A stretch of 64,000 bases of DNA from Octadecabacter algicola (GTDB lineage Bacteria; Pseudomonadota; Alphaproteobacteria; Rhodobacterales; Rhodobacteraceae). The stretch spans positions 1 through 64,000 of the forward strand of contig NZ_JAKGAR010000004.1 of NCBI RefSeq assembly GCF_021532625.1, read 5' to 3'. The notes beneath the pieces are model-generated. The model was not told the DNA's origin, did no database searches, and was given only the letters and a program-made list of their open reading frames with translations. This document shows, one piece after another, positions 44,151 through 63,047 of the stretch; within the stretch, counting starts at the first letter, position 1, and the number at the start of each line of letters is the position of its first letter. Made by a program: the position numbers and the translations under genes.

Positions 44151-45158
44151 ATGAGCAGTTCAAACACATCTCAGGTCGCTTCCACGCCCGCCCGTAAGGG
44201 TACAGGGCGCCGTTGGCGTGACATCGCGCTATTGGCTGCCCTGTTTGCATTTGTGATTGCTGGCTTGGCGGGGCTAGCCGCCGCAACCGGTTGGGAAGAG
44301 ACCAAGCACCAGTTGATGCAATTGACGTTTGGCCAAATTGCCACCCTTCTCGCCCTTAGCCTTGTGAACTACCTGTTTCGAGGCGCGAGGTGGCACCTGT
44401 TTTCAAACCGATTAGGGCTCCCGACGACGTTGATGCAAGATTTGCGCCACTTTCTTGGGGGGTTTGCGATGTCCGTAACACCAGGTCGGGTCGGCGAACT
44501 CATCCGTATGCGCTGGTTACGCCGTGAGACCGGTTGGGCGGTTGAGCGCACAGCCCCACTGGTGTTGATGGATCGCGCATCTGACCTTGCCGCGATGGCC
44601 TTGATCCTTGCAGGCTGCATTGCCATGTCTGCTGGAGGTATTGCGATGGCGTTGCCTGTGGCTGCACTCGCCTTGGTCGCAGCATTTGTTGCGACCCGTC
44701 CTAAATTGCTCGCGGCGTGCATCACCCTTCTTTACCGCGTCATTGGCCGTTTTCCCCGTCTGATGGCACGGATCCGTATCGCCGCAAAGTCCCTTGGGGT
44801 GTTCTCAAGTGGCCCGATCATGGCGACGGCGCTGACGCTCGGTCTGATCGGTTGGGTCGCGGAAGGTTATGCATTTCACATCTTATTGATGTGGATGGGC
44901 GCTGACATTGGCCTTGCCAAAGCCATTGCTATTTTCACATTCTCGACCCTCGCGGGTGGCCTAACGGGTGCACCAGGCGGCGTCGGCGGGGCTGAGGCGG
45001 CTATGGTCGCCTTGTTGGCACTCGAAGGCGTGCCGCTAGAGATATCCATCCCCGCAACCGCAGTCATTCGCCTTACAACACTCTGGTTTGCGATCCTGAT
45101 TGGTTTGGCGGTCTTTCCACTCGCCGAGCGAATGTCAGCAAAGGCCGAAACCAAATGA
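44151..45158 (+). CDS. YbhN-type (UPF0104) membrane protein coupled to DprE1
   Basis: About 335 residues with roughly eight membrane spans. It matches the membrane half of lysylphosphatidylglycerol synthases (YbhN/AglD group), with no aminoacyl-transferase domain; RYHLFxx-like GARWHLFSNRLG and VTPGRVGELIRMRW are family motifs, and GGVGGAEAAMVALL near the end. Such proteins are suspected to move lipid-linked molecules across the membrane. ATG 44151 was chosen because AAAGG lies 6 nt before it; starts at 44070 and 44145 are weaker. Its stop overlaps the DprE1 start (ATGA), so a link with the arabinose pathway is likely. Confidence 0.85.
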   Translation: MSSSNTSQVASTPARKGTGRRWRDIALLAALFAFVIAGLAGLAAATGWEETKHQLMQLTFGQIATLLALSLVNYLFRGARWHLFSNRLGLPTTLMQDLRHFLGGFAMSVTPGRVGELIRMRWLRRETGWAVERTAPLVLMDRASDLAAMALILAGCIAMSAGGIAMALPVAALALVAAFVATRPKLLAACITLLYRVIGRFPRLMARIRIAAKSLGVFSSGPIMATALTLGLIGWVAEGYAFHILLMWMGADIGLAKAIAIFTFSTLAGGLTGAPGGVGGAEAAMVALLALEGVPLEISIPATAVIRLTTLWFAILIGLAVFPLAERMSAKAETK

Positions 45159-46459
45159 CCGATCGAAACTCGACTGAATATGCTGGCTGGGGCCGCGCCT
45201 TGCGCGCGAATGGTGTCCTTGCGCGGCCAAATACACAATCAGAAATAAACGCCAACGCCCCCGCAATCGGCAATCGCCGCAGTTATGGCGACGCCGCCCT
45301 GATTACGGGCGGTACAGCACAAGATTTAACACAGCTTGATCGGATTATCGCATTTGATCGAACCACAGGCCTTTTGACCGTCGAAGCTGGAATTTCCTTG
45401 GGCGAACTTGCCCGCGTGCTTGCGCCCCAAGGGTGGCTTCCAGCTGTGCTTCCGGGCACTGGGTTTGCAACAGTCGGTGGCGCCATTGGCATGGATGTGC
45501 ATGGCAAAAACCACCATCATGTTGGCAGCTTTTGCCAACACGTGACCTCAATCACATTGATCCAAGGCGAAAAGACCAAAACGATCACGCCAAAATCCGG
45601 CAGCATTTGGAAAGCCACCTGCGGTGGTCTTGGCCAAACAGGCATCATAGTTCAGGCAACGCTGCAACTGTCTCAGGCTCGTGGGGACATGATGTTGGTC
45701 AGCGAACAACGCGCCACAGATTGGGACCACCATATCGCCCTGCTGGATGGGTCTGATGCGCCCTACACGGTCGGTTGGATTGACGCGATGGCGACGGGGA
45801 CTTCGCTTGGTCGTGGTATTGTTGAAGAAGGTGAAATCTGCCGCGGGCTAAAACCCACAGCGCGCGGATCAAAAAAGATCCCCTTTGACGCGCCACATCT
45901 GGCCCTAAGTAGTCCCATCGTGCGGGCCTTCAATGCTCTCTATTACCGTCGCGTTCCCAAATCAGGCCGAACGGTTGTACGCCCCATCAACGATTTCTTC
46001 TTCCCGCTTGATAAAATCCACGACTGGAACAAGCTCTATGGCAGGCGTGGATTTCATCAGTTCCAATGCGTCGTTCCGCTAAACCAATCCAGTGTACTCC
46101 GTGAGATGATGGAAAAGGTTGCAAGCTCTGGCCTCGCCTCCCCTCTCGCAGTGCTCAAACGCATGGGCGCGGGGCTGAATGGGGAAAGCGCAGGCTACAT
46201 GTCCTTCCCTATGGAAGGCTACACATTGGCGATTGATTTCCCAAACCGGCCCGCTGCCCGAGATCTGATTGCCAAGCTAGAATCCCTCGCGTTGAAGGCC
46301 AATGGCCGCATCTACCTTGCCAAAGACGCGCTCAGCACGGGCACAGCAATCAAATCGATGTACACCGACCACCCCAAATGGGCGGCTGCCACGGCCAAAG
46401 CCGACCCGCACAAACACCTACAAACCGACATGACACGCCGTTTAGACTTAAGGACGTAA
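45155..46459 (+). CDS. Decaprenylphosphoryl-ribose 2'-oxidase homologue (DprE1-like)
   Basis: 434 residues. FAD enzyme oxidising the 2'-hydroxyl of polyprenyl-phosphate ribofuranose, first half of the epimerisation to arabinofuranose. It shares with mycobacterial DprE1 the motifs RRSYGDAAL, VLPGTGFATVGGAIGMDVHG followed by KNHHHVGSF, and the substrate region ending RIYLAKDALST with the catalytic Lys, and MTRRLDL at the end. At the place of the benzothiazinone-reactive Cys (NICVDFP in M. tuberculosis) this protein has Ala359 (YTLAIDFP). It is coupled to the YbhN-like gene and followed 3 bp later by DprE2. Confidence 0.93.
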   Translation: MTDRNSTEYAGWGRALRANGVLARPNTQSEINANAPAIGNRRSYGDAALITGGTAQDLTQLDRIIAFDRTTGLLTVEAGISLGELARVLAPQGWLPAVLPGTGFATVGGAIGMDVHGKNHHHVGSFCQHVTSITLIQGEKTKTITPKSGSIWKATCGGLGQTGIIVQATLQLSQARGDMMLVSEQRATDWDHHIALLDGSDAPYTVGWIDAMATGTSLGRGIVEEGEICRGLKPTARGSKKIPFDAPHLALSSPIVRAFNALYYRRVPKSGRTVVRPINDFFFPLDKIHDWNKLYGRRGFHQFQCVVPLNQSSVLREMMEKVASSGLASPLAVLKRMGAGLNGESAGYMSFPMEGYTLAIDFPNRPAARDLIAKLESLALKANGRIYLAKDALSTGTAIKSMYTDHPKWAAATAKADPHKHLQTDMTRRLDLRT

Positions 46460-46462
46460 ACT

Positions 46463-47200
46463 ATGACCGATACTTGGATTATCCTTGGCGCAAGCTCTAC
46501 CATCGCCAAGGCATTCACCCGCTCCGTCGCCGAAACTGGCGCGCACGTGATCCTTGCCGGTCGCCGCATGGACGACCTTGAGGCGAGCGCCGCTGACGCC
46601 TCTGCGCGCAGTGCAACTGGTGCTACCCCGGTTGCTTTTGACGCACGAGATCCCGCAACCTTTCAACCGATCATTGATGCCGCGATTGCCACAGGCGGCA
46701 CGATCAATTGCGCCGTGTTCGTCGGCTCTATGCCAAGCCAAGATGACATCAACGCTGACCCTGCCCTCGTGGATGGAACAATTGCTGACAGCTTCACTGG
46801 CCCCGCACGGTTCTTGCAGATGCTTGCGCCCGTCCTAAGCGAACAGGGAAGCGGTTCCGTTGTCGGTGTCGGTTCTGTTGCCGGTGATCGTGGGCGTGTC
46901 GGGAATTATGTTTATGGGGCAGCTAAGGCTGGCTTTGCGACTTACCTCAGTGGGCTACGCAACCAATTGGGACGCAATGGAGTCCACGTTCTTACCGTTA
47001 AACCGGGTCCAGTTGACACGGTTATGACCCAAGGGCTGGGTGATCAGCCGTTCATGACGACAGCTGATGCAGTCGTCGCTGACATCCACAAGGCCCTGCG
47101 CAAGAAACGCAATACTCTCTATACGAAATGGATTTGGTGGCCTGTGATGACTGTGATTAAACTGATCCCAGAACCGATCTTCAAAAAGATGTCGATCTAG
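46463..47200 (+). CDS. DprE2-like short-chain dehydrogenase
   Basis: 245 residues. NAD(P)H-dependent reductase that turns the 2'-keto intermediate from DprE1 into polyprenyl-phosphate arabinofuranose. The nucleotide loop is ILGASSTIAKAF, the catalytic YxxxK is in NYVYGAAKAGFATYLSGL, and VLTVKPGPVDTVMT follows. The C-terminus (LIPEPIFKKMSI) parallels that of mycobacterial DprE2. AAGGA lies 9 nt before the ATG. Generic SDR function is certain; the DprE2 role rests on context and the C-terminal match. Confidence 0.9.
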   Translation: MTDTWIILGASSTIAKAFTRSVAETGAHVILAGRRMDDLEASAADASARSATGATPVAFDARDPATFQPIIDAAIATGGTINCAVFVGSMPSQDDINADPALVDGTIADSFTGPARFLQMLAPVLSEQGSGSVVGVGSVAGDRGRVGNYVYGAAKAGFATYLSGLRNQLGRNGVHVLTVKPGPVDTVMTQGLGDQPFMTTADAVVADIHKALRKKRNTLYTKWIWWPVMTVIKLIPEPIFKKMSI

Positions 47201-47229
47201 GCGTATTGTTATCGCCCGCCTTTGTGTTG

Positions 47230-48657
47230 TCAGCCAAATAAGCGGGTAAACCATTCGGTCCACAATCCAGCCGCGTAGAATAACAGAGAAAGCGTGATCA
47301 GGAGGTATCCGATTCCACGCATGTCCGTCATCGCGAACACGATCGGATCATAGTCCATTTTACCCATATAGCCGAGCCGGATCATCCGATAGAGCCACGC
47401 TGCTATCGGCAGCAAGGCAAACCACATCAGCCATTGATCCGGATAAAGAGATAATGCCTGATCCGAGTATGAATACAAAAAGAAGATAACCAAAGCACCC
47501 ACCATGCCCAGCGCCGACATGTTCAACAAATCACCCATATCGCCGCGCGCATAGCCGCGCCCAGGAAGTCGCCGGTCATCCTTTGCAAGTGCCAGTTCCG
47601 TCATGCGTTTAACGCAGCCAAGAGCGACAAATACGGGAAAGATGAAGATCAGCATGTAGACCGATGCGTCCACCCCACTGGCCGCAGCGCCTGCAACGAC
47701 GCGTAACGTATAGAGAGACGCAAGAGTCGCGATATCGATCCAGCGCAAGCGCTTTAGGCGCAGCGAATAAGCGAGGGAGAGCGCCATGTAGACGGCCACG
47801 ACACCAAACATCTCCCATGACAGCATAAACGCCAGCCCCAGTGCCAATACACCAAGCCCGACGCACGTCAGCATCCCGATAGGAATTGGGACTGTTCCGG
47901 CCGCGAATGGCCGCTTGCATTTTGTGGCATGCAAACGGTCGGCTTCTATGTCCAGCAGATCGTTCACAATATAAATACAGGACGCTGCCGCCGAAAAACT
48001 AACAATCCCAAGGCAAACAGCCAAAAAGGTATCCAGAAAAAAGGCGTGTGCTGCGATCAGTGGCAGGAACAGCAGAACATTCTTCACCCACTGGTGCGGC
48101 CGCATGGATTTCAGCACGGCGCGGGGTGACCAACCGCCCCTCACCTTTGTCACACTCTCTAGCCCCTTTGCACCGCCACCGGCATCGCCAACGACAATTG
48201 CGTGATCCGCATGATCCCAAATCAGGCGATCCACCTTATCGTTGCCCGCATAATCAAACCCCGATTCGCCATAGACGGCGACCAGTGCATCCGCTTTGGC
48301 CTGCCCTTTGAGGTTCACACCATTCTCGGACGCAAAGACCCGCTCAATTCCGTAGTGATCTGCCAAGGGCTGCACGACCGATACATCCGAAGCACTGGCA
48401 ATCGCCAGCTCGCGACCTTGGTCTCGCGCAACAAGCGCCATTGTCGCTATATCTTCGTGGACAGGCAAAAGATCGACCCGCAAGGGCGCAATACGTGCAA
48501 TTTCGGCTTTGAATGCGGCGCGATCCTTAACCAAAGCGAATGCCTTGAGAGTGGCAACAGGGTCGGTTCCGAACCCTTTCCAGATGCCTTCTAGCAACAT
48601 GTCCGTGCGTAACAATGTTCCGTCCGCGTCCAGAACGAGAGGCTTGCCGTTATTCAT
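47230..48657 (-). CDS. HAD phosphatase-UbiA prenyltransferase fusion (polyprenyl-phosphate phosphoribose synthase type)
   Basis: 475 residues. The N-terminal third is a HAD-type phosphatase (DADGTLL with Asp10 and Asp12). The rest is a UbiA-type enzyme with about nine spans and the first aspartate motif NDLLDIEADRLH from Asn232, then KCKRPFAAGTVP, and a second motif DDRRLPGRGYARGD. The UbiA half resembles the mycobacterial enzyme that attaches 5-phosphoribose to decaprenyl phosphate; the HAD half could then remove the 5-phosphate. TTG 48687 and GTG 48666 are alternative starts. It follows the lytic transglycosylase by 10 bp. Confidence 0.88.
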   Translation of the reverse strand: MNNGKPLVLDADGTLLRTDMLLEGIWKGFGTDPVATLKAFALVKDRAAFKAEIARIAPLRVDLLPVHEDIATMALVARDQGRELAIASASDVSVVQPLADHYGIERVFASENGVNLKGQAKADALVAVYGESGFDYAGNDKVDRLIWDHADHAIVVGDAGGGAKGLESVTKVRGGWSPRAVLKSMRPHQWVKNVLLFLPLIAAHAFFLDTFLAVCLGIVSFSAAASCIYIVNDLLDIEADRLHATKCKRPFAAGTVPIPIGMLTCVGLGVLALGLAFMLSWEMFGVVAVYMALSLAYSLRLKRLRWIDIATLASLYTLRVVAGAAASGVDASVYMLIFIFPVFVALGCVKRMTELALAKDDRRLPGRGYARGDMGDLLNMSALGMVGALVIFFLYSYSDQALSLYPDQWLMWFALLPIAAWLYRMIRLGYMGKMDYDPIVFAMTDMRGIGYLLITLSLLFYAAGLWTEWFTRLFG

Positions 48658-48667
48658 GTCAGGCACA

Positions 48668-49543
48668 TTATCCCCCGTTGACGGCAAAAACGCAGCCGTC
48701 TGTCACCAATTCCGGTGGTGTAATACATAGACCGCGCGCCACTTCCCATGCTGCAAGGACTTTGGGAACATAGGCCCGCGTTTCGGCATAGGGCGGGATG
48801 CCGTTATTATTACGAACGGCGCCTTCACCCGCATTATAACCTGCCAGAGCAAAGATAACGCCGTTATCGAATTCGTTTAGCAACCAATCCAAATATGCCG
48901 TGCCGCCCTTAATATTGTCTTGAGCGTTAAATGCATCCGTCACGCCAAACCGATCCGCTGTAGGCGGCATCAATTGCATAAGTCCCTGTGCGCCCGCTGA
49001 ACTAACTGCGTCAGCACGCCCAGCGCTTTCGACTGAAATCACCGCAAGAACCAAGGCCGGTGAAACGTTTGTGCCAATTGATGCCGTTAATATCTCAACG
49101 CCGAAACGGTCAGCCAGCTCCGTCATACCTTGTAAACGAGGCGCTGGAACGGCTTGTCCCTCGGGTGCGCTGCGCAACGCGGCGACTGCTTTTTCAAGGC
49201 TAAAGCTGTGGGCATCGTCCAGAGATGGCGAAATCGCCTCCCAATACCATTCGACACCGTTTGGCGCGGGGGCCAGACCTGCGATCGCTGGTGCACTCGG
49301 TGCGCGGGGCGTAGCGCTGGCCGAACCAGCGGCGGATGGCGCCGATGGCCCAGACGGCGCGGTTGGTGCGACTTGTACGGTTATCCGGTTTGTAGCCCCA
49401 GCCTGCGGAACGCCAACGCGCCTGAATGTAAAGTCACTTTGGGAAAGATGACTTTCTGCCGCACTTATAGATGCAGAGCCGACGGCGAGCGCCAATGCCC
49501 CACATTGCGCGAACAATGTCACTGTTTTCTTGCTACGCCGCAT
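48668..49543 (-). CDS. Lytic transglycosylase (SLT domain), exported
   Basis: 291 residues. Cleaves peptidoglycan without hydrolysis, making space for envelope machines. A signal peptide (AQCGALALAVGSASISAAE) is followed by a Pro/Ala/Ser-rich linker and an SLT domain with VISVESAGRADA (the catalytic Glu), GAQGLMQLMPPTADRFGV and AGYNAGEGAV. ATG 49543 was chosen because AAGGA lies 9 nt upstream; a frame from 49711 has no support. It is divergent from the first pilin gene, so it could serve the Tad pilus. Confidence 0.92.
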   Translation of the reverse strand: MRRSKKTVTLFAQCGALALAVGSASISAAESHLSQSDFTFRRVGVPQAGATNRITVQVAPTAPSGPSAPSAAGSASATPRAPSAPAIAGLAPAPNGVEWYWEAISPSLDDAHSFSLEKAVAALRSAPEGQAVPAPRLQGMTELADRFGVEILTASIGTNVSPALVLAVISVESAGRADAVSSAGAQGLMQLMPPTADRFGVTDAFNAQDNIKGGTAYLDWLLNEFDNGVIFALAGYNAGEGAVRNNNGIPPYAETRAYVPKVLAAWEVARGLCITPPELVTDGCVFAVNGG

Positions 49544-49896: not shown

Positions 49897-50097
49897 ATGC
49901 TTAACTTTATTAAAAACTTCCGCAACGACGAAGACGGCGCCGTAACTGTTGACTGGGTTGTTCTGACAGCCGCAATCGTTGGTCTTGGCATCGCAGTTCT
50001 GACATCTGTTGGTGGCGGTACTATGTCTGCTTCCGACACACTGTCCGGCGATCTGGCCACAGTGAATGATCTGGTTCCAGACTTCTCTGCTCTTTAA
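49897..50097 (+). CDS. Flp family pilin 1
   Basis: 66 residues. A prepilin of the Tad pilus: a 14-residue leader ends in DEDG, and the mature part starts AVTVDWVVLTAAIVGLGIAV, the hydrophobic helix that packs in the fibre. The usual Glu5-Tyr6 pair of Flp pilins is Asp5-Trp6 here. The protein is identical to that of pilin 2. A hairpin follows the stop. Confidence 0.92.
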   Translation: MLNFIKNFRNDEDGAVTVDWVVLTAAIVGLGIAVLTSVGGGTMSASDTLSGDLATVNDLVPDFSAL

Positions 50098-50105
50098 TTC
50101 AATTC

Positions 50106-50132
50106 GACCTCGGCCAGTCATTGGCTGAGGTC
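50106..50132 (+). other. 3' hairpin of pilin 1
   Basis: GACCTCGGCCA pairs with TGGCTGAGGTC (11 bp, one wobble) across loop GTCAT. It starts 8 nt after the stop and has no T-run. Likely an mRNA-protecting structure. Confidence 0.75.
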
Positions 50133-50169
50133 ACCCCCCTTATTCAATACACACACGTGGAGACTACAC

Positions 50170-50370
50170 ATGCTTAACTTTATCAAAAACTTCCGCAACG
50201 ACGAAGACGGCGCCGTAACTGTTGACTGGGTTGTTCTGACAGCCGCAATCGTTGGCCTCGGCATCGCAGTTCTGACATCTGTTGGTGGCGGTACTATGTC
50301 TGCTTCCGACACACTGTCCGGCGACTTGGCCACAGTGAATGATCTGGTTCCAGACTTCTCTGCTCTTTAA
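50170..50370 (+). CDS. Flp family pilin 2
   Basis: 66 residues with the same protein as pilin 1, from a copy offset 273 bp that differs only at a few silent bases. It carries the same leader and Asp5-Trp6. A GTGGAGAC ribosome site precedes the ATG. Confidence 0.92.
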   Translation: MLNFIKNFRNDEDGAVTVDWVVLTAAIVGLGIAVLTSVGGGTMSASDTLSGDLATVNDLVPDFSAL

Positions 50371-50437: not shown

Positions 50438-50626
50438 ATGTTTAACTATTTCAAAACCTTTCGTGCTGATGAAGACGGCGCAGTTACAGTTGACTGGGTT
50501 GTTTTGACAGCGTGTATCGTTGGCCTCGGAATTGCGGTTTTGACTGTTGTTGGTGAAGGCACCATGGAGCTTAGCCGCAAGCTTAGCTCACAGCTTTCTG
50601 CGCAGACCATCGCGAACTACAACTAA
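50438..50626 (+). CDS. Flp family pilin 3
   Basis: 62 residues, start ATG 50438 with CTGGAGAC upstream. Leader MFNYFKTFRADEDG, then AVTVDWVVLTACIVG. It has a unique Cys in the helix and a more charged C-terminus (MELSRKLSSQLSAQ) than pilins 1 and 2, so it may be a minor pilin. Confidence 0.9.
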   Translation: MFNYFKTFRADEDGAVTVDWVVLTACIVGLGIAVLTVVGEGTMELSRKLSSQLSAQTIANYN

Positions 50627-50792: not shown

Positions 50793-50978
50793 ATGTTCAA
50801 TTTTATCAAGTCCTTCCGCAAACAGGAAGACGGCGCAGTCACAGTAGATTGGGTTGTTCTGACAGCCGCGATTGTCGGCCTTGGCATCGCGGTCATTACC
50901 ACTGTCGGTCGCGGCGCAACAGACCAAGCAACTGGTCTCGCTGGAACAATGAGTGCCGTTACAGTAGTGGAATTCTAA
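50793..50978 (+). CDS. Flp family pilin 4
   Basis: 61 residues, start ATG 50793 with GAGGAG upstream. Leader MFNFIKSFRKQEDG, then AVTVDWVVLTAAIVGLGIAV. No compact hairpin follows it; instead CGTCGACAT at 50988-50996 and its complement at 51050-51058 could fold over 53 nt before cpaB. Confidence 0.9.
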   Translation: MFNFIKSFRKQEDGAVTVDWVVLTAAIVGLGIAVITTVGRGATDQATGLAGTMSAVTVVEF

Positions 50979-51093: not shown

Positions 51094-51951
51094 ATGCGAG
51101 CAGTTTTCGGACTTGTCCTTATAGTTGGCATGGGCCTTGCAGGCTTTGCTATCTACATGGTGCAGGGATATTTTGAACAGCAAAATGCAGCCCTTGCACA
51201 ACAACGAGCGGCAAACCAACAAGCCGTTCAGACCGTTAACGTGTATGGGGTTAACCGTGTCATTGAACACGGCGAACAAATCGCCCCTGAAGACGTCATC
51301 ATTATCAAATACGCTGAACCCTTCCTTCCGGAAGGTGTGTTCTTCACTTTAGAAGATCTGTTCCCAGATGGACCCGAAGAAATGCGCGTTGTCACGCGTC
51401 AGCTTGAAGCAAACGAACCTATCCTGGCTGTTAAAGTGACCGAACCAGGTGAAGTGGCCGGTATCACCGCCCTTCTCGCACGTGGTATGCGCGCTTTTGC
51501 AATCGAAGTGGATGTTTCGTCCGGTGTATCCGGGTTCCTTTCTCCTGGTGACCGCGTTGACGTCTATTGGACGGGTCGCGTGGACAACTTTGATGGCGGA
51601 CGTGGCGGCGAAGTAACCAAACTTATCCAAGCGAACATTCCATTGGTCGCAATTGACCAAACCTCGGAAAGCGGCCGTTCAGGTGCAACGATCGCCCGCA
51701 CGGTCACTGTTCAGGTCACACCGGATCAAGTGGCTGCACTGGCGCAAGCCCAAGCCACTGGCAATCTGTCACTGTCTCTTGTGGGTCGTGAAGATGATAC
51801 CGTTGCTGGCGCGATTGAGGTCGACCAAGCCAGCCTGCTGGGACTCGTCGCTCGCGAAGTAGAACCCGAACTGCAAGAGGAAGAAGTCTGCACAATCCGA
51901 CAACGCAACGGAACAGAGGTCGTCGAAATCCCGATCCCTTGTCCAGAATGA
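51094..51951 (+). CDS. cpaB: Flp pilus assembly protein CpaB
   Basis: 285 residues. Periplasmic partner of the outer-membrane secretin. An N-terminal membrane anchor (about 3-20) precedes a SAF-type domain (EHGEQIAPEDVIIIKYAEP) and an RcpC-like domain with GFLSPGDRVDVYWTGR. GGAAGGA lies before the ATG. A strong terminator lies 77 bp past its stop, so the pilin-cpaB unit ends here. Confidence 0.93.
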   Translation: MRAVFGLVLIVGMGLAGFAIYMVQGYFEQQNAALAQQRAANQQAVQTVNVYGVNRVIEHGEQIAPEDVIIIKYAEPFLPEGVFFTLEDLFPDGPEEMRVVTRQLEANEPILAVKVTEPGEVAGITALLARGMRAFAIEVDVSSGVSGFLSPGDRVDVYWTGRVDNFDGGRGGEVTKLIQANIPLVAIDQTSESGRSGATIARTVTVQVTPDQVAALAQAQATGNLSLSLVGREDDTVAGAIEVDQASLLGLVAREVEPELQEEEVCTIRQRNGTEVVEIPIPCPE

Positions 51952-52027
51952 GTTAAAGGATAGCCCTTGGGCAAAGGGACAGCGCCCGCGCAGGGATGTC
52001 CAATTGCACAAATGCAACCTCAACATG

Positions 52028-52062
52028 AAAGACGCCCCAGCCCCGCTGTGGCGTCTTTTTTT
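52028..52062 (+). terminator. Intrinsic terminator after cpaB
   Basis: AAAGACGCC pairs with GGCGTCTTT (9 bp) across a 13-nt loop and a run of seven T follows. It ends the pilin-cpaB unit and leaves about 155 bp for a cpaC promoter. Confidence 0.92.
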
Positions 52063-52219
52063 ATGGATTAAGTGCTTGGCTGCGCTGATTGTTGCAACTT
52101 ATCCACATAAAGTTTCCGCTCCAGTGTATTGATTCTTGCAAAAAATGCAGTTTTGGCGCAGGTTCATTTCAATGACGGGCAAAAGCCTGCATCGGGCGTG
52201 GCATTAGAGGCAGTCACAT

Positions 52220-53644
52220 ATGACATATGATAGATTATTGAAGGCAGCCATTACTGGTTTCGCCTTTGCAGTTAGCAGTATCCCTTCCATGGTTTCTTCG
52301 GAAACTTTGCAAGTTATGCGGGGCGCTCCTTCGAGCGCGCTGAACGTTCCCATGAACCGGGCCGTCGTGGTTGAAAGCGATGTACCATTCACAGAACTTT
52401 CCATCGCAAACCCTTCGATCGCGGACATTTCTTCGCTTTCGGATCGCACTATCTACGTGCTGGGTAAGGTTCCGGGGCGAACAACGCTGACCCTTTTGGG
52501 GGGCGACGGGCGACTTATTACCAACGTCGAAGTCCACGTAACTCCGGACATTGCAGAATTCAAAGAACGTCTGGAGCAAATCCTTCCGGGTGAAAACATC
52601 GAAGTTCGCACCGCAAATGACGGTATCGTCCTTTCCGGCACCGTTTCTTCGATCGCACGTCTTGATCGCGCACTGGAACTAGCGGATCGCTACGCACCTG
52701 AACGGGTTTCTAACCTGATGACGGTTGGTGGTACCCAGCAAGTTATGTTGCGCGTTCGCTTTGCAGAGATGCAGCGTTCTGTTTCCAAGTCTCTCAGCTC
52801 TTCACTGGCCTTGGGCGGCGACACATTGGGCGGGGACCTGGGCCTAGCACTCGGCACTGGCTCGACAGTTACTGCCGCGGGGCAAGCTAATTCCTTGTCC
52901 GGCAACACGCCTGGTACCAATGATAACTCAGGCGCATTCTTGTTTGGCTTCAACGCCGGCGGCATCGAGGTCGGCATTTTGCTTGAAGCTTTGGAAAGCC
53001 GCGGCGTTGTTCGTACATTGGCTGAACCAAACCTGACTGCTTTGTCCGGTCAGGAAGCAAGCTTCTTGGCGGGCGGCGAGTATCCTGTGCCTGTTTCACA
53101 AGACGCCGACACAATTACCGTTGAATATAAGCCTTTCGGCATCGAGCTGAACTTTATTCCACGGGTTATCGACGGTGACATTATCAATCTAGAACTCGAC
53201 GCGTCTGTTTCGTCACTCGATCCAGCGAACGGATTTACTTCGAACGGCTTTAGCGTCGATGCTTTCAAAACACGCCGTACTTCAACGACAGTTGAAATGC
53301 GTGACGGAGAGAGCTTTGCAATTGCAGGTCTCTTGTCTGATGATTTCGTTGACCTTTCTGGCCAAGTGCCATGGGCAGGCGACATTCCGGTTCTTGGCGC
53401 ATTGTTCCGCTCTGCGGAATATGCCCGCCAGCAAACAGAACTCGTCATCATCGTGACACCGCATCTTGTGACCCCGACCCGTGGTGAGGCTCTGGCCCTT
53501 CCAACGGATCGTGTCCGCCCACCGACCGAACGTGACTTGTTCTTGTTTGGCCGCGTTGCAGCAGACAATGCACCACAACAAGGTGGCGCAGGAGAGGTTG
53601 CACGTCAGGACTTCAGCGGCTCTTATGGCTACGTGTTGGACTAA
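52220..53644 (+). CDS. cpaC: Tad secretin CpaC (RcpA)
   Basis: 474 residues. Outer-membrane channel through which the pilus emerges. A signal peptide (ITGFAFAVSSIPSMVSS) precedes a CpaC N-terminal domain and a BON-like stretch (VLSGTVSSIARLDRALEL), and the secretin core runs from about 165 to 425, with VLRVRFAEMQRS, GRVVR-like EALESRGVVRTLAEPNLTAL, and a C-terminal VPWAGDIPVLGALFRS. It begins a second Tad operon. Confidence 0.95.
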   Translation: MTYDRLLKAAITGFAFAVSSIPSMVSSETLQVMRGAPSSALNVPMNRAVVVESDVPFTELSIANPSIADISSLSDRTIYVLGKVPGRTTLTLLGGDGRLITNVEVHVTPDIAEFKERLEQILPGENIEVRTANDGIVLSGTVSSIARLDRALELADRYAPERVSNLMTVGGTQQVMLRVRFAEMQRSVSKSLSSSLALGGDTLGGDLGLALGTGSTVTAAGQANSLSGNTPGTNDNSGAFLFGFNAGGIEVGILLEALESRGVVRTLAEPNLTALSGQEASFLAGGEYPVPVSQDADTITVEYKPFGIELNFIPRVIDGDIINLELDASVSSLDPANGFTSNGFSVDAFKTRRTSTTVEMRDGESFAIAGLLSDDFVDLSGQVPWAGDIPVLGALFRSAEYARQQTELVIIVTPHLVTPTRGEALALPTDRVRPPTERDLFLFGRVAADNAPQQGGAGEVARQDFSGSYGYVLD

Positions 53645-53647
53645 GAA

Positions 53648-54325
53648 ATGGGATTTGGGGCAATGAAAACGACAGCAGTTCTTACCGCAACAGTGCTCGC
53701 CCTTACGGGTTGCACTGGCGGCACCGCCACCCAATGGCGTGATTTCAACACTCGTGAGGCGGGTTCAGAAATCGACAGTGGCTATTTTGGCAATGCAACC
53801 ATGAACAACAATCAGGTTCAAACGGATGGCAGCGCCATGATGCTGAACTTGAACCGTCGTTTCTCGAATGAAGTGAACACGTCCGTAACGTTCGCGTTCA
53901 ACTCCACGGTTCTTGATGCCAATGCACGCGCTACGCTGCAGCAGCAGGCGTCTTGGATCCGACAGTTCCCAGAAATCCGGTTCAAAGTCTTTGGCCACAC
54001 GGACCTTGTGGGGTCGACGTCTTATAACCGTCGTCTTGGATTGCGCCGCGCGGAAGCCGCCGTTCTCTACCTCACAAGTCAGGGGATCAGCCGTGATCGG
54101 CTTGAAGCCGTCGTTTCTTTTGGTGAAACACAGCCATTGATCGTCACCGAGGGTCAAGAACGCCGCAATCGTCGCACAGTGACAGAAGTGTCCGGTTGGG
54201 TGAGCACAGCAAACGACATGCCGCTAAACGGCCGCTACGCCGAAGTGATTTTCCGCGAATACGTGGATAGTGCAACAGCACCTCAAGGCCTAGCAGCCGA
54301 AGGTATCGAGTCGATCGCGCAGTAA
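53648..54325 (+). CDS. OmpA-like lipoprotein in the cpaD position
   Basis: 225 residues (220 if ATG 53663 is used). A lipoprotein signal (LALTGC) is followed by a short linker and an OmpA-like peptidoglycan-binding domain with FAFNSTVLDANARATL, GHTDLVGS, RLGLRRAEAAVLYL and NRRTVTEV; the Asp and Arg that bind diaminopimelate are present. It follows cpaC by 3 bp, where many Tad loci have cpaD. It could tether the secretin to the wall. Confidence 0.92.
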   Translation: MGFGAMKTTAVLTATVLALTGCTGGTATQWRDFNTREAGSEIDSGYFGNATMNNNQVQTDGSAMMLNLNRRFSNEVNTSVTFAFNSTVLDANARATLQQQASWIRQFPEIRFKVFGHTDLVGSTSYNRRLGLRRAEAAVLYLTSQGISRDRLEAVVSFGETQPLIVTEGQERRNRRTVTEVSGWVSTANDMPLNGRYAEVIFREYVDSATAPQGLAAEGIESIAQ

Positions 54326-54360
54326 GTCTAAACCGCGCAACCACAGTCAAAGCGACAGTC

Positions 54361-54383
54361 AGGGGCCTTTCGAGGCCCCTTTT
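54361..54383 (+). terminator. Intrinsic terminator after the OmpA lipoprotein
   Basis: AGGGGCC pairs with GGCCCCT across loop TTTCGA, and TTTT follows. It closes the cpaC-OmpA pair; cpaE begins about 220 bp on. Confidence 0.85.
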
Positions 54384-54601
54384 CGCATCCAAAACAGGTC
54401 AAATTCGGAAACAACGGCGCGTTTTTTGGCTCACCGTCTACAGATACCGCACAAATGGGCCTTTCTGGCCCCAATCTTGCCTCCTTCTGGGATCAGAAAC
54501 AGATCTAACAGAGCCCCAGTTGTGTCTTTTTGCACGTGGGACCGTCAAATCGGTGGGCAGGGAATCTGCCGCACTTCGTCGAGTTAGAGGATCAAGAGGC
54601 A

Positions 54602-55870
54602 ATGAGTAGTTTAAATATGTTACAGCCTGAACCACAGCCTATCACTGCATGTACCATAAGCCGGGACGTACAAAACTTTGATTTATTGATTGAAGACATG
54701 GAAGCCTGCCTAGGCGAAAGCTGGGGTGATCTCGGGTTTGGGGACGCATTACCGTTCCTCGAACAGCCCGAAGCATCCGAGCTCGAATTCCTAGCGATCG
54801 CACTGGATGAAGAAGATGAGGCTGATCTTTCGATCATCTCAGAGATCATTCGCACTGCAAAAACAAAAGATATTAAAGTCTTGCTAATTGCCGAGGATGT
54901 TTCTCCGGCGTCACTGCATGGCTTGCTGCGCGATGGCGGCGACGAATTTGTGCCCTACCCTCTTCCAGAAGGTGAATTGGCACAAGCAATCGAACGCGTC
55001 CTGACCCCACCAGAACCTACTCATATTGCACCAGAAATTCAGAACACTCTGAAGGCATCTGGCACCCACAACGGCGTCGTCATTCCTGTTCAAGGTATGG
55101 CTGGCGGTACAGGTGCCACGACCTTGGCTGTGAACCTTGCTTGGGAACTAGCCAGCATTCAGCCACCGAAGGTTAAAGGCGCGGAGCCGGAAAAAGGCCC
55201 ACGTGTTTGCTTGTTGGATCTGGATTTCCAATTTGGATCCGCATCTACGTACCTCGACCTGCCGCGCCGCGAAGCTGTGTTCGAGATGCTGCAAGATACT
55301 GAAAGCATGGACAGCGAATCCTTTATGTATTCCCTGTTGTCGTACGAACAGAAACTGCAGGTGCTAACAGCCCCAACCGATCTGATTCCATTGGATTTAA
55401 TCACACCGGAAGACATTCACCGCCTCATCGAAATGGCGCGCACGAACTTCGACTACGTCGTGATTGATATGCCAAAGACCATGGTTGAGTGGAGCGAAAC
55501 AGTTTTGCAGGCCGCTCACGTTTATTTCGCGACGCTCGAATTGGACATGCGTTCGGCACAAAATACATTGCGGATCAAACGCGCGCTGCAGTCTGAACAA
55601 CTTCCATTCGAGAAGCTACGGTTCGTTTTGAACCGCGCGCCGAAATTCACGGATTTGAACGGCAAAAGCCGCATCAAACGTTTGGCAGAAAGCCTGGGTA
55701 TTTCGATCGAAGTTCTACTTCCTGATGGCGGTAAGGTCGTGCCTCAGAATGCCGACCACGGCGTCCCCTTGGCCGAAGGCCTTGCAAAAAATCCGTTACG
55801 CAAAGAAATCGCAAAGCTTGCCCAGTCGGTTCACGCAGTGAATTCAGCCGACGAAGCCGCAACTGCATAA
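54602..55870 (+). CDS. cpaE: Tad pilus localisation ATPase CpaE (TadZ)
   Basis: 422 residues. A ParA/MinD-superfamily protein that sets the polar position of the pilus. The first 130 or so residues form a receiver-like domain, then GMAGGTGATTLAVNLA from Gly165, a Walker A in which Ala172 stands where the lysine of GKT belongs. LLDLDFQFGS and VVIDMPKTMVEWSE are the later nucleotide motifs. ATG 54602 was chosen; an upstream frame from 54530 lacks a good site. Short upstream hairpin GGGCC/GGCCC near 54454. Confidence 0.93.
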   Translation: MSSLNMLQPEPQPITACTISRDVQNFDLLIEDMEACLGESWGDLGFGDALPFLEQPEASELEFLAIALDEEDEADLSIISEIIRTAKTKDIKVLLIAEDVSPASLHGLLRDGGDEFVPYPLPEGELAQAIERVLTPPEPTHIAPEIQNTLKASGTHNGVVIPVQGMAGGTGATTLAVNLAWELASIQPPKVKGAEPEKGPRVCLLDLDFQFGSASTYLDLPRREAVFEMLQDTESMDSESFMYSLLSYEQKLQVLTAPTDLIPLDLITPEDIHRLIEMARTNFDYVVIDMPKTMVEWSETVLQAAHVYFATLELDMRSAQNTLRIKRALQSEQLPFEKLRFVLNRAPKFTDLNGKSRIKRLAESLGISIEVLLPDGGKVVPQNADHGVPLAEGLAKNPLRKEIAKLAQSVHAVNSADEAATA

Positions 55871-55882
55871 AGGTGGAACACC

Positions 55883-57340
55883 ATGTTTTCCAAGTATAAA
55901 AAGACCGATCCTTTGGTGGCAAAAGCCACTGCTGCCGCGCCAAAAGCTGCAAGCAATGTGACGAAAATTCCGGCGCCGGCTGCAGAACCTGCCGCCGCGC
56001 GTTCTACGGTCATGAAGCAAGCGCCCGTCAAGGCGGTTGCAAGTGCTGGAGACAAAGAAAAGAAACGCAAAGAGCGTCTGGGTGACATCAAGCTGGAACT
56101 TCACAAATCCCTGCTCGACAACCTGAACCTCGCCGCGCTGGAAAACGCTACCGACCAAGATCTGAAAGCTGAAATTCAAGCCATTGCCCAGGAAAGCTTG
56201 GAAGAAATGGGCGTGGTCTTGAACCGCGAAGAACGCCAGCAACTGACCAAAGAATTATTCTATGAAGTAAAAGGCCTTGGGCCGCTGGAAACACTTCTGC
56301 AAGACGAGTCTGTGAACGATATTCTCGTGAACGGCCCACAGCAGATTTTCGTGGAACGCGCAGGTAAACTTCAGCTGACAGACATCACATTCAAAGATGA
56401 AAAGCATCTGCTGCGGATCATCGATAAAATTGTTTCGGCGGTTGGTCGTCGTGTCGATGAATCCAACCCTTACGTCGATGCGCGCCTTCAGGATGGCTCT
56501 CGTTTCAACGCCATGGTCCCGCCAGTTGCGGTTGATGGATCGCTCGTTTCCATTCGTAAGTTTAAGAAGGACAAGCTCGGCATCGATGACCTTGTGCAGT
56601 TCGGCGCCTTCACTGAGGAAATGGCCGCATATCTACAGGCCGCTGTGTCCACTCGTCTGAACATTATCGTGTCTGGTGGTACGGGTTCTGGTAAAACGAC
56701 CACGTTGAATGCCTTGTCATCCTTCATCGACAACGATGAACGCATCCTAACAATTGAGGATACTGCGGAACTTCAGCTGCAACAAACGCACGTTGGCCGG
56801 ATGGAAAGCCGTCCACCGAACGTTGAAGGAAAAGGCGAAGTGTCCCCGCGGGACTGTCTGAAAAACGCACTGCGTATGCGACCTGACCGTATCATCGTAG
56901 GTGAAACCCGTGGCGAAGAAGTTATCGATATGCTTCAGGCCATGAACACAGGCCACGATGGTTCCATGACAACAATTCACGCCAACTCTGCGCGTGATGG
57001 TGTGTCTCGTTTGGAAAACATGATCGCAATGGCCGGTATCGAAATGCCACTTAAGGCGGTTCGTTCTCAGATTTCGTCTGCGGTGAACCTGATCGTGCAG
57101 GCGTCTCGTCTGCAGGATGGTTCGCGTCGTATGACGTCCATTACTGAAATCACCGGTATGGAAGGCGACGTTATCTCGATGCAAGAAGTCTTCAAGTATC
57201 AGCGCGTTGGCCTGACACCTGACAACAAAATCATTGGCCACTTTACGGCGACTGGTGTGCGGTCCCACTTCTCTGAGCGCTTCAAGCTTTGGGGTTACGA
57301 TTTGCCGCCTGCAATCTTTGAACCCGTCGCAGCGCAATAA
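55883..57340 (+). CDS. cpaF: Tad pilus assembly ATPase CpaF (TadA)
   Basis: 485 residues. Secretion ATPase that powers pilin assembly. N-terminal charged region, then [21 protein letters not shown] and the Walker A GGTGSGKT at residues 265-272 (Lys271). [35 protein letters not shown] (Walker B region) and [14 protein letters not shown] (His box) are all present, so it is predicted active. It follows cpaE by 12 bp. Confidence 0.97.
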
Positions 57341-57352
57341 GGTTTTAGAAAC

Positions 57353-58321
57353 ATGACCATTTCAGCTGAACCAATCATCTATGCCCTGATCTTTGTGGCC
57401 TGTATTGTGTTGGTGAACGGTGTCTACCTTGTCGCATTCGGCAAAAGCATCAACTTCAACAACAAGGTGAACCGTCGCCTGGATCTGCTTGAAAAAGGCG
57501 GCAACCGCGAAGAGGTGCTGGACAAACTCCGCAAGGAGATGAGCCAGCACATGGATTCTCAAAAAATCCCGCTGTACTCACTTTTGGCGAACAAGGCCCA
57601 AAAGGCCAACATCGCGTTTTCCCCTGCACAACTGATAATGATGATGGTTGTCATGTCCGGCGTTGCGTTTATGGGCCTCACTGTCGGCACAGCCACATCC
57701 CTCCCAATTCGCGCAGCTGTGTCTATCGCAATGGGCGTCGGAGGCATTTTCTTTTGGGTCAACAGCAAGGCCAAGAAGCGTATCGCTATGATCGAAGAAC
57801 AGCTGCCAGATGCGGTTGAACTGATGGTTCGTAGTTTGCGCGTTGGTCACCCGTTTAGCTCTGCTATCGCGATTGTAGCCAAAGAAGTGCCCGACCCTCT
57901 TGGTACTGAAATGGGTGTGATTTCGGATGAAGCGGCTTATGGCCGCGACATGGGTGATACCCTCAAGCAAATGGCCGAGCGCATGGACATGCAAGATATG
58001 CGGTTCCTTGCGGTTGCTGTGACCATTCAGCAGACTGCGGGTGGTAACCTCGCTGAGATTTTGCACGGTTTGGCACAGGTGATCCGCGCCCGTTTCAAAT
58101 TGTTCCGCCGCGTGAAAGCGATCACCGCTGAGGCGAAATGGTCCGGCATGTTCTTGTCCGTATTTCCTTTGGCGGCCCTTGTTGGCATCAACCTGATCCA
58201 GCCGAACTACTACGACGATGTCAAAGAAACATCTGCCTTCATTCCGGCCTGTCTGGTTGTGGCCGGTTTCTTGATCACAAACGTGATCGTTATGCGTCGT
58301 CTCGTTAACATTAAGGTGTAA
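57353..58321 (+). CDS. tadB: Tad pilus inner-membrane protein TadB
   Basis: 322 residues. One of two polytopic platform proteins that work with CpaF. It has an N-terminal anchor, two central spans (about 92-137), and the T2SS-F cytoplasmic domain with LPDAVELMVRSLRVGHPF and MRFLAVAVTIQQTAGGNLAEIL, then two C-terminal spans. It follows cpaF by 12 bp and precedes tadC by 5 bp. Confidence 0.95.
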   Translation: MTISAEPIIYALIFVACIVLVNGVYLVAFGKSINFNNKVNRRLDLLEKGGNREEVLDKLRKEMSQHMDSQKIPLYSLLANKAQKANIAFSPAQLIMMMVVMSGVAFMGLTVGTATSLPIRAAVSIAMGVGGIFFWVNSKAKKRIAMIEEQLPDAVELMVRSLRVGHPFSSAIAIVAKEVPDPLGTEMGVISDEAAYGRDMGDTLKQMAERMDMQDMRFLAVAVTIQQTAGGNLAEILHGLAQVIRARFKLFRRVKAITAEAKWSGMFLSVFPLAALVGINLIQPNYYDDVKETSAFIPACLVVAGFLITNVIVMRRLVNIKV

Positions 58322-58326
58322 CCAAA

Positions 58327-59304
58327 ATGGGCCTTCTAGATACAATCAACGCGAAACTCATCGATCTGCTTGGCCCGTTCGGTCCGCTCATGGCGATCGG
58401 TATGCTCGGCGTTTTGCTGATCCTGCTGGTATTGCCAGCCATGTTTCAAAAGCAGGAAGATCCTCTTGATAGGCTCAAGGCCAACAGCGCGGCCAATATG
58501 GGCAAGTCGCCCGAAGCGTTGCGTGCGTCTCAGGGGACAGACAAGCTGGACAAATATTCCGACTTTCTGGAACCAAAAGATGTCGAAGAATACACCGCCA
58601 TCCGCCTAAAGCTGATCCAAGCGGGCTACCGCACCAAATCCGCAGTGAAGACATACCACTTCGCCCAATTTGCGTTGGGTATTGGCTTGCTCTTATTGGG
58701 CGTTGTCTACGCGATCTACAAATCGTCTACCGGTGATCCGTCAACCAAGTCGACTTTGCTGTCGATCTTTATTCCGGGTCTGGCAGGTTACTACCTGCCC
58801 AAATGGTGGGTCGGCAAACGCCAAAAGGCGCGCCAAGAAGAAATGATTAATGGCTTTCCAGACAGCTTGGACATGATGCTTGTCTGCGTAGAAGCGGGCC
58901 AGTCTTTGGACCAATCCATTATCCGCGTGAGCCAAGAGCTGAAATCAGGTTTCCCTGCCCTGGCCGAAGAATATGAAACTGTCAGCCACGAAATGAAAGC
59001 TGGTAAAGACAAAACCCAAGTTCTGCGGGACATGTCCGAGCGCTGCGGCGTGTCCGACATCGCATCCTTCGTGACCGTTCTGATCCAAAGCCAACAGTTC
59101 GGTACATCCATTGCCGAAGCCTTGCGCGTGTTTTCTGCGGAAATGCGGGACAAACGGGTGATGCGGGCGGAAGAAAAAGCCAACACATTGCCGACAAAAA
59201 TGACACTCGCGACGATGATGTTGACGGTTCCGCCGCTTCTTATTATCCTCATCGGCCCATCTGTTCATAATATTTACGTAACGTTGAACCAGGCAAACTT
59301 CTAA
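58327..59304 (+). CDS. tadC: Tad pilus inner-membrane protein TadC
   Basis: 325 residues. Second platform protein, paralogous to TadB, with four spans: about 18-38, 105-125, 135-155 and 295-320. The T2SS-F motifs FPDSLDMMLVCVEAGQSLDQ and SFVTVLIQSQQFGTSIAEAL are present. It pairs with TadB around the ATPase. Confidence 0.95.
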   Translation: MGLLDTINAKLIDLLGPFGPLMAIGMLGVLLILLVLPAMFQKQEDPLDRLKANSAANMGKSPEALRASQGTDKLDKYSDFLEPKDVEEYTAIRLKLIQAGYRTKSAVKTYHFAQFALGIGLLLLGVVYAIYKSSTGDPSTKSTLLSIFIPGLAGYYLPKWWVGKRQKARQEEMINGFPDSLDMMLVCVEAGQSLDQSIIRVSQELKSGFPALAEEYETVSHEMKAGKDKTQVLRDMSERCGVSDIASFVTVLIQSQQFGTSIAEALRVFSAEMRDKRVMRAEEKANTLPTKMTLATMMLTVPPLLIILIGPSVHNIYVTLNQANF

Positions 59305-59312
59305 AGGCAAAG

Positions 59313-59873
59313 ATGCTCAAATCAGGAATGATGATATCGGCTTTCGCCGTCCTGACCGCCTGTGGTCAGGGCGGCTTTGCGCCTTCTGATGGGGACCGAG
59401 TTTTTGCACCTGGTGTTGCGGGCGCGTCTGATATTGATGGTCTAATGGTTGGCCATCGCCTAATGGCTGCTGGGGAATACGACCTCGCGCTGCGTGCCTA
59501 TACGCGGGCCGCCGGCCAGCAAGGGTTGAACGTCGATACGTTATCGGCCCTTGGCTCTGCCAACCTAAAGCTGGGCCGCTTGGGACAAGCCGAACAACTC
59601 CTGAGACGCGCCGTCGAAGAAGACCCTGCTTTTGCAGCCGCATGGAACAATTTGGGCGTAATATTGATGGAACGAGGCAAAACCTCGGAAGCGGCACAGG
59701 TTTTCCGTCGCGCATTTGCCACGGATAACGGCAATTCTGACGAAATACGTGACAACCTACGCTTGGCGCTCGCTAAATTGGAAAATCCGTTTAATACTGG
59801 TGAACAAGAGAACGAACCGTTCCAATTGGTGCGGCGGGGAACGGGCGACTTTGTCCTCCTGTCGACACTGTAA
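59313..59873 (+). CDS. TPR lipoprotein 1 (TadD-like)
   Basis: 186 residues. A lipoprotein signal (ISAFAVLTAC, lipobox Cys) precedes three tetratricopeptide repeats (about 50-155), including LRAYTRAAGQQGLNVDTLSAL, AEQLLRRAVEEDPAFAAAWN and VFRRAFATDNGN. TadD-type proteins act as pilotins for the secretin. AAAGG lies 5 nt before the ATG. Confidence 0.9.
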   Translation: MLKSGMMISAFAVLTACGQGGFAPSDGDRVFAPGVAGASDIDGLMVGHRLMAAGEYDLALRAYTRAAGQQGLNVDTLSALGSANLKLGRLGQAEQLLRRAVEEDPAFAAAWNNLGVILMERGKTSEAAQVFRRAFATDNGNSDEIRDNLRLALAKLENPFNTGEQENEPFQLVRRGTGDFVLLSTL

Positions 59874-59901
59874 GAGACAGAGCAGTAAAAGGACGCAAAA
59901 C

Positions 59902-60759
59902 ATGCGCCACCCTATTCTTCTTTCCGCAGCCCTAATGGGCTCGTTTGCGTTATCCGCATGCGATCAATCTGGCGATGCACAGGTTGAACGTGCGTTGCAA
60001 GACGTGAATGTCGTCGATGAAACCAACCTCAACGATGTGATGTTGACCGTTGCGGACCCGAACGAGGCCGTGAACTATTTCCTTCGGGCCTCAGCAAACG
60101 ACCCCGGCCGCATTGACTTGATGCGGGGGCTTGCAACATCTCTTGTTCGTGCCCGCCGCCCCTCTGAGGCCGTGACTGCATGGCAAGCGGTTGTAGATCA
60201 CGAAGAAAGCCTGACAAACGACAAGATCGATTTGGCTGATGCGATGATCCGGACCAATGATTGGGACTCTGCCGAAGCCGTGCTGGACTCCATTCCCCCG
60301 ACACATGAAACATTCAAGCGTTATCGCCTCGAAGCAATGGTCGCGGACAGCAACGAAGAATGGGACAACGCCGACAGCTTCTATGAAACTGCAGTTGGGC
60401 TCACCACGTCACCCGCTGGCGTTTTGAACAACTGGGGTTTTTCCAAACTGACACGAGGCGATTATGCTGGTGCTGAACGTTTGTTCACTGACGCATTGCG
60501 CAATGATGCTGATCTGTTCACCGCCAAGAACAACCTTGTTTTGGCCCGTGGTGCGCAGCGCAACTACGACCTGCCCGTCATTCCGATGAGCCAGATCGAA
60601 CGCGCGCAATTGCTCCATACGCTTGCGTTGACAGCAATCAAACAGAACGACCTGACGATCGGTCGCGGCTTACTGCGCGAAGCGATCGACACGCACCCGC
60701 AACACTTTGAAGCCGCAGTACGTTCCTTACGCGCGCTCGAAGACAACGTGACGAACTAA
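59902..60759 (+). CDS. TPR lipoprotein 2 (TadD-like)
   Basis: 285 residues. Lipoprotein signal (MGSFALSAC) followed by tetratricopeptide-like repeats from about 60 to 250. AAAGGACG lies before ATG 59902; the frame runs back to 59716 into the previous gene, but that part is not coding. Two TPR lipoproteins in a row may have separate tasks, such as secretin piloting and pilus assembly. Confidence 0.88.
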   Translation: MRHPILLSAALMGSFALSACDQSGDAQVERALQDVNVVDETNLNDVMLTVADPNEAVNYFLRASANDPGRIDLMRGLATSLVRARRPSEAVTAWQAVVDHEESLTNDKIDLADAMIRTNDWDSAEAVLDSIPPTHETFKRYRLEAMVADSNEEWDNADSFYETAVGLTTSPAGVLNNWGFSKLTRGDYAGAERLFTDALRNDADLFTAKNNLVLARGAQRNYDLPVIPMSQIERAQLLHTLALTAIKQNDLTIGRGLLREAIDTHPQHFEAAVRSLRALEDNVTN

Positions 60760-60761
60760 AC

Positions 60762-62891: not shown

Positions 62892-63047
62892 GCCTGCCTC
62901 TGGAACGGTTTTGTCCCTTTTTTCGACACAATAGTCAGGCAAACCCATTTATGTAAACCTTTCCACGCGTTCGGGCGAAATCCGTCTGAAGTGTGTGTTT
63001 GGGCCACAGAAACGCGCAAAATGGCGCAAAGACACGGGCAAATAGAG

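Follow-up and report, generated by a model that had tools for sequence, protein, structure and literature searches.

Described systems and the locus studied here

The pentofuranose pathway elucidated by Kelly and colleagues (PMC11127046) describes the systems closest to five genes found in 64,000 nucleotides of Octadecabacter algicola DNA (contig NZ_JAKGAR010000004.1, positions 1 to 64,000; “the window”), part of a 3.45 Mb genome. Together they probably encode a system for lipid-linked D-arabinofuranosylation that serves the Tad pilus specifically. In the described three-component systems, such as Citrobacter youngae ORF15/ORF14/ORF12 (GT136), an N-terminal HAD phosphatase is fused to a UbiA-type transferase, the donor is lipid-linked, a separate flippase and a glycosyltransferase of the C-type fold (GT-C) are present, and DprE1 and DprE2 occur where arabinofuranose (Araf) is made. 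The window locus is alike in all these respects. It differs in having an MprF-type rather than a MATE flippase, and in lying within a Tad locus rather than an O-antigen locus; its acceptor is probably a protein. For the candidate transferase, here called GTC, no sequence relationship to any named family was detected in Pfam, NCBIfam or the PDB, with GT136 compared by description only. Because a flippase of another family would fill the same role, the window locus would work like the three-component systems without matching the prototype at that step.

Parallels also exist with the arabinosylation of group IV pilins in Pseudomonas aeruginosa and P. paraeruginosa (TfpW with PSPA7_6245-6251), where D-Araf is found on the pilins (PMC12369383, PMC11841053). 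Both systems combine a UbiA and DprE1/DprE2-type donor pathway with a GT-C enzyme encoded beside pilin genes. In the window, however, the pilus is of the Tad/Flp kind (type IVc) rather than type IVa, the donor genes lie inside the pilus locus rather than in another island, and the phosphatase is fused to UbiA. The mycobacterial decaprenylphosphoryl-arabinose pathway (Rv3806c, Rv3807c, DprE1, DprE2, Rv3789 and Emb/Aft) likewise shares the UbiA-type transferase, the catalytic residues of DprE1, DprE2 and the GT-C fold. It differs from the window locus in its phosphatase (Rv3807c rather than HAD), its flippase (SMR rather than MprF-type), the residue at DprE1 position 387 (alanine in the window) and its arabinan-wall context, which the window lacks. 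The five cassette genes are as follows.

44151-45158, + strand: FLIP, candidate lipid-linked pentose flippase (LPG_synthase_TM, MprF flippase-domain fold; PF03706, E 3e-42)
45155-46459, + strand: DprE1-like flavin adenine dinucleotide (FAD) oxidase, predicted 2'-oxidation of polyprenyl-P-ribose (NF053785, 348 bits)
46463-47200, + strand: DprE2-like short-chain reductase (NF053786, 160 bits; NF005489, 244 bits)
47230-48657, − strand: HAD-UbiA fusion, predicted phosphoribose 5-phosphatase and polyprenyl-phosphate phosphoribosyltransferase (NF006088, 481 bits)
61251-62948, − strand: GTC, candidate GT-C arabinofuranosyltransferase of an unnamed family, 565 residues (fold of the AlphaFold model)

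Predicted donor-making enzymes and flippase

The DprE1-like protein matches its NCBIfam model over 425 residues (E 1e-103), under the curated cut-off of 500 bits, and matches PDB structures of Mycobacterium tuberculosis DprE1 with an E value of 5e-66. When aligned to the M. tuberculosis protein it keeps H132, K134, Q334, Q336, K367 and K418, and is best described as a homologue with a predicted conserved active site rather than a certified equivalog. Alanine replaces C387, the cysteine to which benzothiazinones bind, so covalent inhibition by these compounds would not be expected. The DprE2-like reductase, encoded directly after DprE1 in all relatives read, is also under the curated cut-offs of both its models (250 bits for NF053786). 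HAD-UbiA exceeds its cut-off of 351 bits, matches the mycobacterial Rv3806c structure 8j8j (E 1e-29) with the NDxxDxxAD motif kept, and has a DADGT motif in its N-terminal HAD domain. The genome carries one DprE1 of this class and one HAD-UbiA, making the tad cassette the sole recognisable donor source.

A first-pass annotation of this DNA had placed DprE1-like, DprE2-like and HAD-UbiA genes in two convergent operons, and both the family matches and the gene spacing bear this out. The plus-strand unit runs FLIP-DprE1-DprE2, with an ATGA overlap between FLIP and DprE1 at 45155-45158. It faces a minus-strand unit in which a lytic transglycosylase gene (LT) precedes HAD-UbiA, the LT stop lying 10 bases before the HAD-UbiA ATG at 48657. 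Two of the five genes had gone unnoticed: the flippase was not named, and GTC is outside the interval that the annotation covered (44151-49543).

Fold comparison identifies FLIP as a relative of the MprF flippase domain. Compared with its AlphaFold 2 model (predicted local distance difference test score, pLDDT, 87.5), MprF structures reach VIA Z 20-23 across 281-290 residues, and the next unrelated fold scores only Z 6. The match to the bifunctional MprF model NF033480 is 35 bits, under the 600-bit cut-off, and the synthase domain is absent. FLIP stands beside tad-type DprE1-DprE2 in every locus read that has the donor genes in the tad position described below, and it would flip polyprenyl-P-Araf. 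Because the flippases of known pentofuranose systems are of MATE or SMR type (PMC11127046), an MprF-type flippase sets this locus apart.

The candidate transferase

GTC had no match in Pfam, NCBIfam or PDB sequences, including in a profile search of the PDB. An AlphaFold model built from 29 homologues has a mean pLDDT of 90. The top Foldseek matches of this model were ArnT, ALG3 and EmbB (E about 1e-3), and VIA-align gave Z scores of 11.0 for ArnT, 9.6 for AftA, 9.4 for Pmt4 and 8.8 for AftD over 340-405 residues. Most matches above Z 8 were GT-C enzymes or glycosylphosphatidylinositol (GPI)-transamidase subunits of related fold. Scores of Z 8-11 are moderate for a helical protein; the GT-C assignment is supported by the conservation of acidic residues in the first loop and by the operon context. 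The invariant residues are E55, D57, H60, G71, H75, D77, T80 and P81; E55 and D57 are in the first loop, behind helix 1, followed by H60 and the motif G..PH.D..TP.G. The catalytic acid of GT-C enzymes is located at this position, and ArnT uses a lipid-linked pentose. Together, the model and the conserved residues make GTC a GT-C-fold protein of a family unnamed in Pfam, NCBIfam and the PDB, with GT136 and TfpW compared by description only. Its best named match is in Octadecabacter sp. B2R22 (94% identity); its homologues begin at Met23 (62882), which may be the actual start of the protein.

Co-occurrence and position beside the tad genes

The cassette occupies two places in the tad locus: slot 1, between scoB and LT, and slot 2, between cpaA and an AAA ATPase gene. 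Two samples were compared, one of 120 Rhodobacteraceae genera and one of 150 genomes of the order, further to or overlapping with the first; G-numbers below denote sampled genomes and L-numbers loci read from them. DprE1 above a threshold of 340 bits was present in 38 of the 120 genera, 31 having a window-type protein (46-64% identical) and seven a divergent one (38-39%). GTC was found in 36 genera, among them all 31 with window-type DprE1. The remaining five are G112, with a divergent DprE1, G019 and G069, whose slot-1 genes are truncated where a contig stops, and two matches that are distant or partial. The 150-genome sample contained 28 genomes with window-type DprE1, 29 with GTC and 27 with both. 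Association of DprE1 with GTC gave a Fisher p below 1e-22 in each sample, a test that counts related genomes as independent. Full-length GTC occurred only in Rhodobacteraceae among the samples searched, with two weak partial matches outside the family among 240 alphaproteobacterial genomes.

Co-occurrence of DprE1, DprE2 and UbiA with tad across relatives had been named beforehand as a check on the first-pass reading, and it was found: cpaB is no more than 6 kb from window-type DprE1 in 23 of 31 genera and no more than 15 kb from it in two more. The other window-type DprE1 genes are at contig ends, in rearranged regions or, in G117, in a genome without cpaB. Random placement would put DprE1 within 6 kb of cpaB in 0.4% per genome, and the conserved position rules out a chance neighbourhood. 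At least two tad genes lie within 10 kb of GTC in 74 of 80 named GTC loci. The other six loci and two Marivivens relatives belong to genomes that all have DprE1 (8/8) and mostly have cpaB (7/8). Moreover, the slot-1 and slot-2 genes are both retained after a rearrangement has parted them in G003, G063, G103, G489 and G491.

Cassettes linked to tad elsewhere in Alphaproteobacteria were also sought. Of 26 genomes with DprE1 in the 240-genome sample, the window's own apart, 24 were checked; 13 had cpaB, and none carried the two genes close together on one contig, the smallest distance being about 185 kb (0/24 tad-linked).

Joint gain and loss at two slots

The window holds a complete Tad (type IVc) set: flp, cpaB, cpaC, cpaE, cpaF, tadB, tadC and the prepilin peptidase. 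The genes around the cassette are as follows.

48668-49543, − strand: lytic transglycosylase LT (SLT; PF01464, E 6e-26), a tad backbone gene
49897-50097, 50170-50370, 50438-50626 and 50793-50978, + strand: four flp pilin genes, putative acceptors, read from the sequence (GAVTVDWVVLTA motif)
51094-61262, + strand: tad backbone with cpaB, cpaC, OmpA-like cpaD, cpaE, cpaF, tadB, tadC, two TPR proteins and the cpaA prepilin peptidase
62991-63998, + strand: AAA ATPase, outside the cassette, bounding the GT-C slot and running past the window end

The pilin genes, followed by cpaB, are divergent from LT, as the first-pass annotation had said; the “pair” of lytic transglycosylases that it described is a single gene. 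Pilin copies 1 and 2 (49897-50370) are nearly identical, indicating a recent duplication, and the number of pilin genes differs between relatives.

In 31 cassette-free tad loci, the backbone scoAB-LT-flp-cpaBCDEF-tadBC-cpaA-AAA has the same order (a few genes lay beyond some reads), and the cassette genes are absent from both slots. LT belongs to this backbone in the cassette-free loci too, which rules it out as a cassette gene; the AAA ATPase gene likewise forms the slot-2 boundary in loci of both kinds. A quick tree of 63 genomes, built from eight proteins of the tad locus itself, requires the cassette to have been gained or lost at least seven times on supported branches, so that strictly vertical descent of a single old arrangement is insufficient as the sole cause. 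In a tree-paired comparison, which does not count related genomes as independent, seven independent pairs differed in slot 1; slot 2 differed in the same direction in six and in the opposite direction in none (sign test p 0.03). Comparative genomics thus reveals joint gain and loss of the two parts of the cassette within the tad locus.

A second, divergent type of cluster occurs in Rhodobacteraceae, comprising HAD-UbiA, GtrA (PF04138), DprE1 and DprE2 (L043, L050-L055, L189, L190, L194 and L195). It shares HAD-UbiA, DprE1 and DprE2 with the window cassette, but GtrA takes the place of the flippase, the genes form a single co-directional cluster away from tad, and DprE1 identity is about 40%. 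Several exceptions argue for function, with divergent genes as a likely backup. In G112, G129 and G206, GTC is the only cassette gene in tad and a divergent UbiA-DprE1-DprE2 cluster lies elsewhere. G007, G024, G063 and G116 have no HAD-UbiA in tad but carry a divergent one at another site. In G147 and G168, DprE2 of the divergent cluster is followed immediately by a gene for a distant relative of GTC (E 1e-23 to 1e-27), and G079 has DprE1 and GTC with no HAD-UbiA match found.

Two further arrangements were observed. In Marivivens donghaensis G117, DprE2 keeps only about its first 170 residues, joined in frame to the second TPR gene by a single deletion (L044 8023-9234) that also took away UbiA, LT, the pilin genes and most of tad; the flippase, DprE1 and GTC remain. 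The region G048:C7:314900-334800 (L180) holds a tad locus of a second kind, of low identity (26-52%), in another gene order and devoid of the cassette.

A model for Tad pilus arabinosylation and its alternatives

The enzyme families and the pathway of Kelly and colleagues (PMC11127046) suggest the following mechanism. The UbiA domain would transfer phosphoribose from phosphoribosyl pyrophosphate to a polyprenyl phosphate (most probably that of undecaprenol), after which the HAD domain fused to it would remove the 5-phosphate. Oxidation by DprE1 and reduction by DprE2 would then invert C2 to yield polyprenyl-P-D-Araf. The MprF-type flippase would move this donor to the periplasmic face, where GTC would pass Araf to part of the Tad machinery before or during assembly, the likeliest target being a serine or threonine near the C terminus of Flp. 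The first-pass annotation had read the locus as the source of a lipid-linked D-Araf donor that might serve Tad pilins or the envelope; the co-occurrence with tad and the discovery of the flippase and the GT-C protein lend support to this reading. The donor pathway is well supported, and the Flp pilins would be the most likely acceptors. Precedents for modified pilins include Aggregatibacter Flp1, described as glycosylated (PMC6182317).

Several results weigh against a working system dedicated to the Tad pilus. The presence of tad is itself only weakly associated with GTC: cpaB occurs in 34 of 36 GTC genomes and in 68 of 84 others (p 0.09). Part of the linkage could also reflect exchange of the whole locus. 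The catalytic aspartates of the HAD domain are gone (DVDGT to LxGGF) from the tad HAD-UbiA genes of G052, G070 and G227 (L026 3765-5012, L029 14965-16200 and L193 15200-16366), the last of these genomes also lacking GTC, which implies that the phosphatase step comes from elsewhere or that the system is decaying. Finally, for Flp pilins collected by pattern, C-terminal serine/threonine was 0.27 at cassette loci compared with 0.21 (p 0.001, phylogeny not considered), and this difference was lost in tree-paired tests (median p 0.25-0.6). A C-terminal aromatic/threonine motif of the pilins was set aside as proof of the acceptor for the same reason, its raw significance not being robust to phylogeny.

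These observations bear on three alternatives. The same polyprenyl-P-Araf pathway could serve GTC in decorating an envelope glycan (lipopolysaccharide or exopolysaccharide), with tad being only a chromosomal address and the two slots moving together through homologous recombination of the whole locus. Characterized relatives do decorate O antigens with pentofuranose side chains (PMC11127046), block exchange is possible given a nearly universal tad backbone (102 of 120 genera), and the weak association with tad presence is as this explanation would have it. However, the genes sit at two separate tad sites, in the LT transcription unit and at the cpaA end; G112, G129 and G206 keep GTC in tad with their donor genes elsewhere; and the single deletion in G117 took UbiA and part of DprE2 along with most of tad. 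We regard an envelope acceptor as unlikely, though it is the strongest of the three.

A different Tad component, such as the OmpA-like CpaD, the secretin or a TPR lipoprotein, is a more doubtful acceptor. All such candidates are encoded between the two slots, and the fragility of the pilin serine/threonine signal leaves room for them, but the known protein acceptor in the analogous P. aeruginosa TfpW system is a pilin (PMC11841053). Least probable of the three is a sugar other than D-Araf, with DprE1 and DprE2 acting on another lipid-linked pentose or yielding another epimer. Scores under the equivalog cut-offs mean that conserved specificity is not assured for either enzyme. Against this, the catalytic residues of DprE1 are conserved, DprE1 is always coupled to DprE2 and in nearly all genomes to HAD-UbiA, and DprE1/DprE2 homologues accompany Araf-containing glycans elsewhere (PMC11127046). 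Arabinosylation of the Tad pilus is the preferred explanation.

Implications

In the literature searched, with subscription literature outside reach, such genes were not found described in Rhodobacteraceae or at a tad locus, nor were dedicated Tad pilus glycosylation genes found. A lipid-linked pentofuranose system is of a known kind; the unnamed GT-C family, the MprF-type flippase and the Tad-locus setting would be its new features. The fuller proposal, in which an undescribed GT-C family O-arabinosylates Flp pilins from MprF-flipped polyprenyl-P-D-Araf, seems to us evenly balanced between right and wrong. If right, it would be the first dedicated Tad pilus glycosylation, gained and lost repeatedly in marine roseobacters, and plausibly a defence against phage or grazers or a means of tuning adhesion to algae.

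To our knowledge, D-Araf outside mycobacteria occurs in few systems, and its biology would gain an unnamed GT-C family and a new type of flippase. The locus also makes available non-pathogenic DprE1 models, with the drug-binding residue C387 naturally replaced in the window protein. Tad pili play an important part in the surface attachment of roseobacters. The repeated arrival and departure of the cassette at two fixed slots provides matched natural pairs, with and without it, in which the role of a pilus sugar may be tested, whether in phage resistance, as for P. aeruginosa pilins, in attachment or in grazing.

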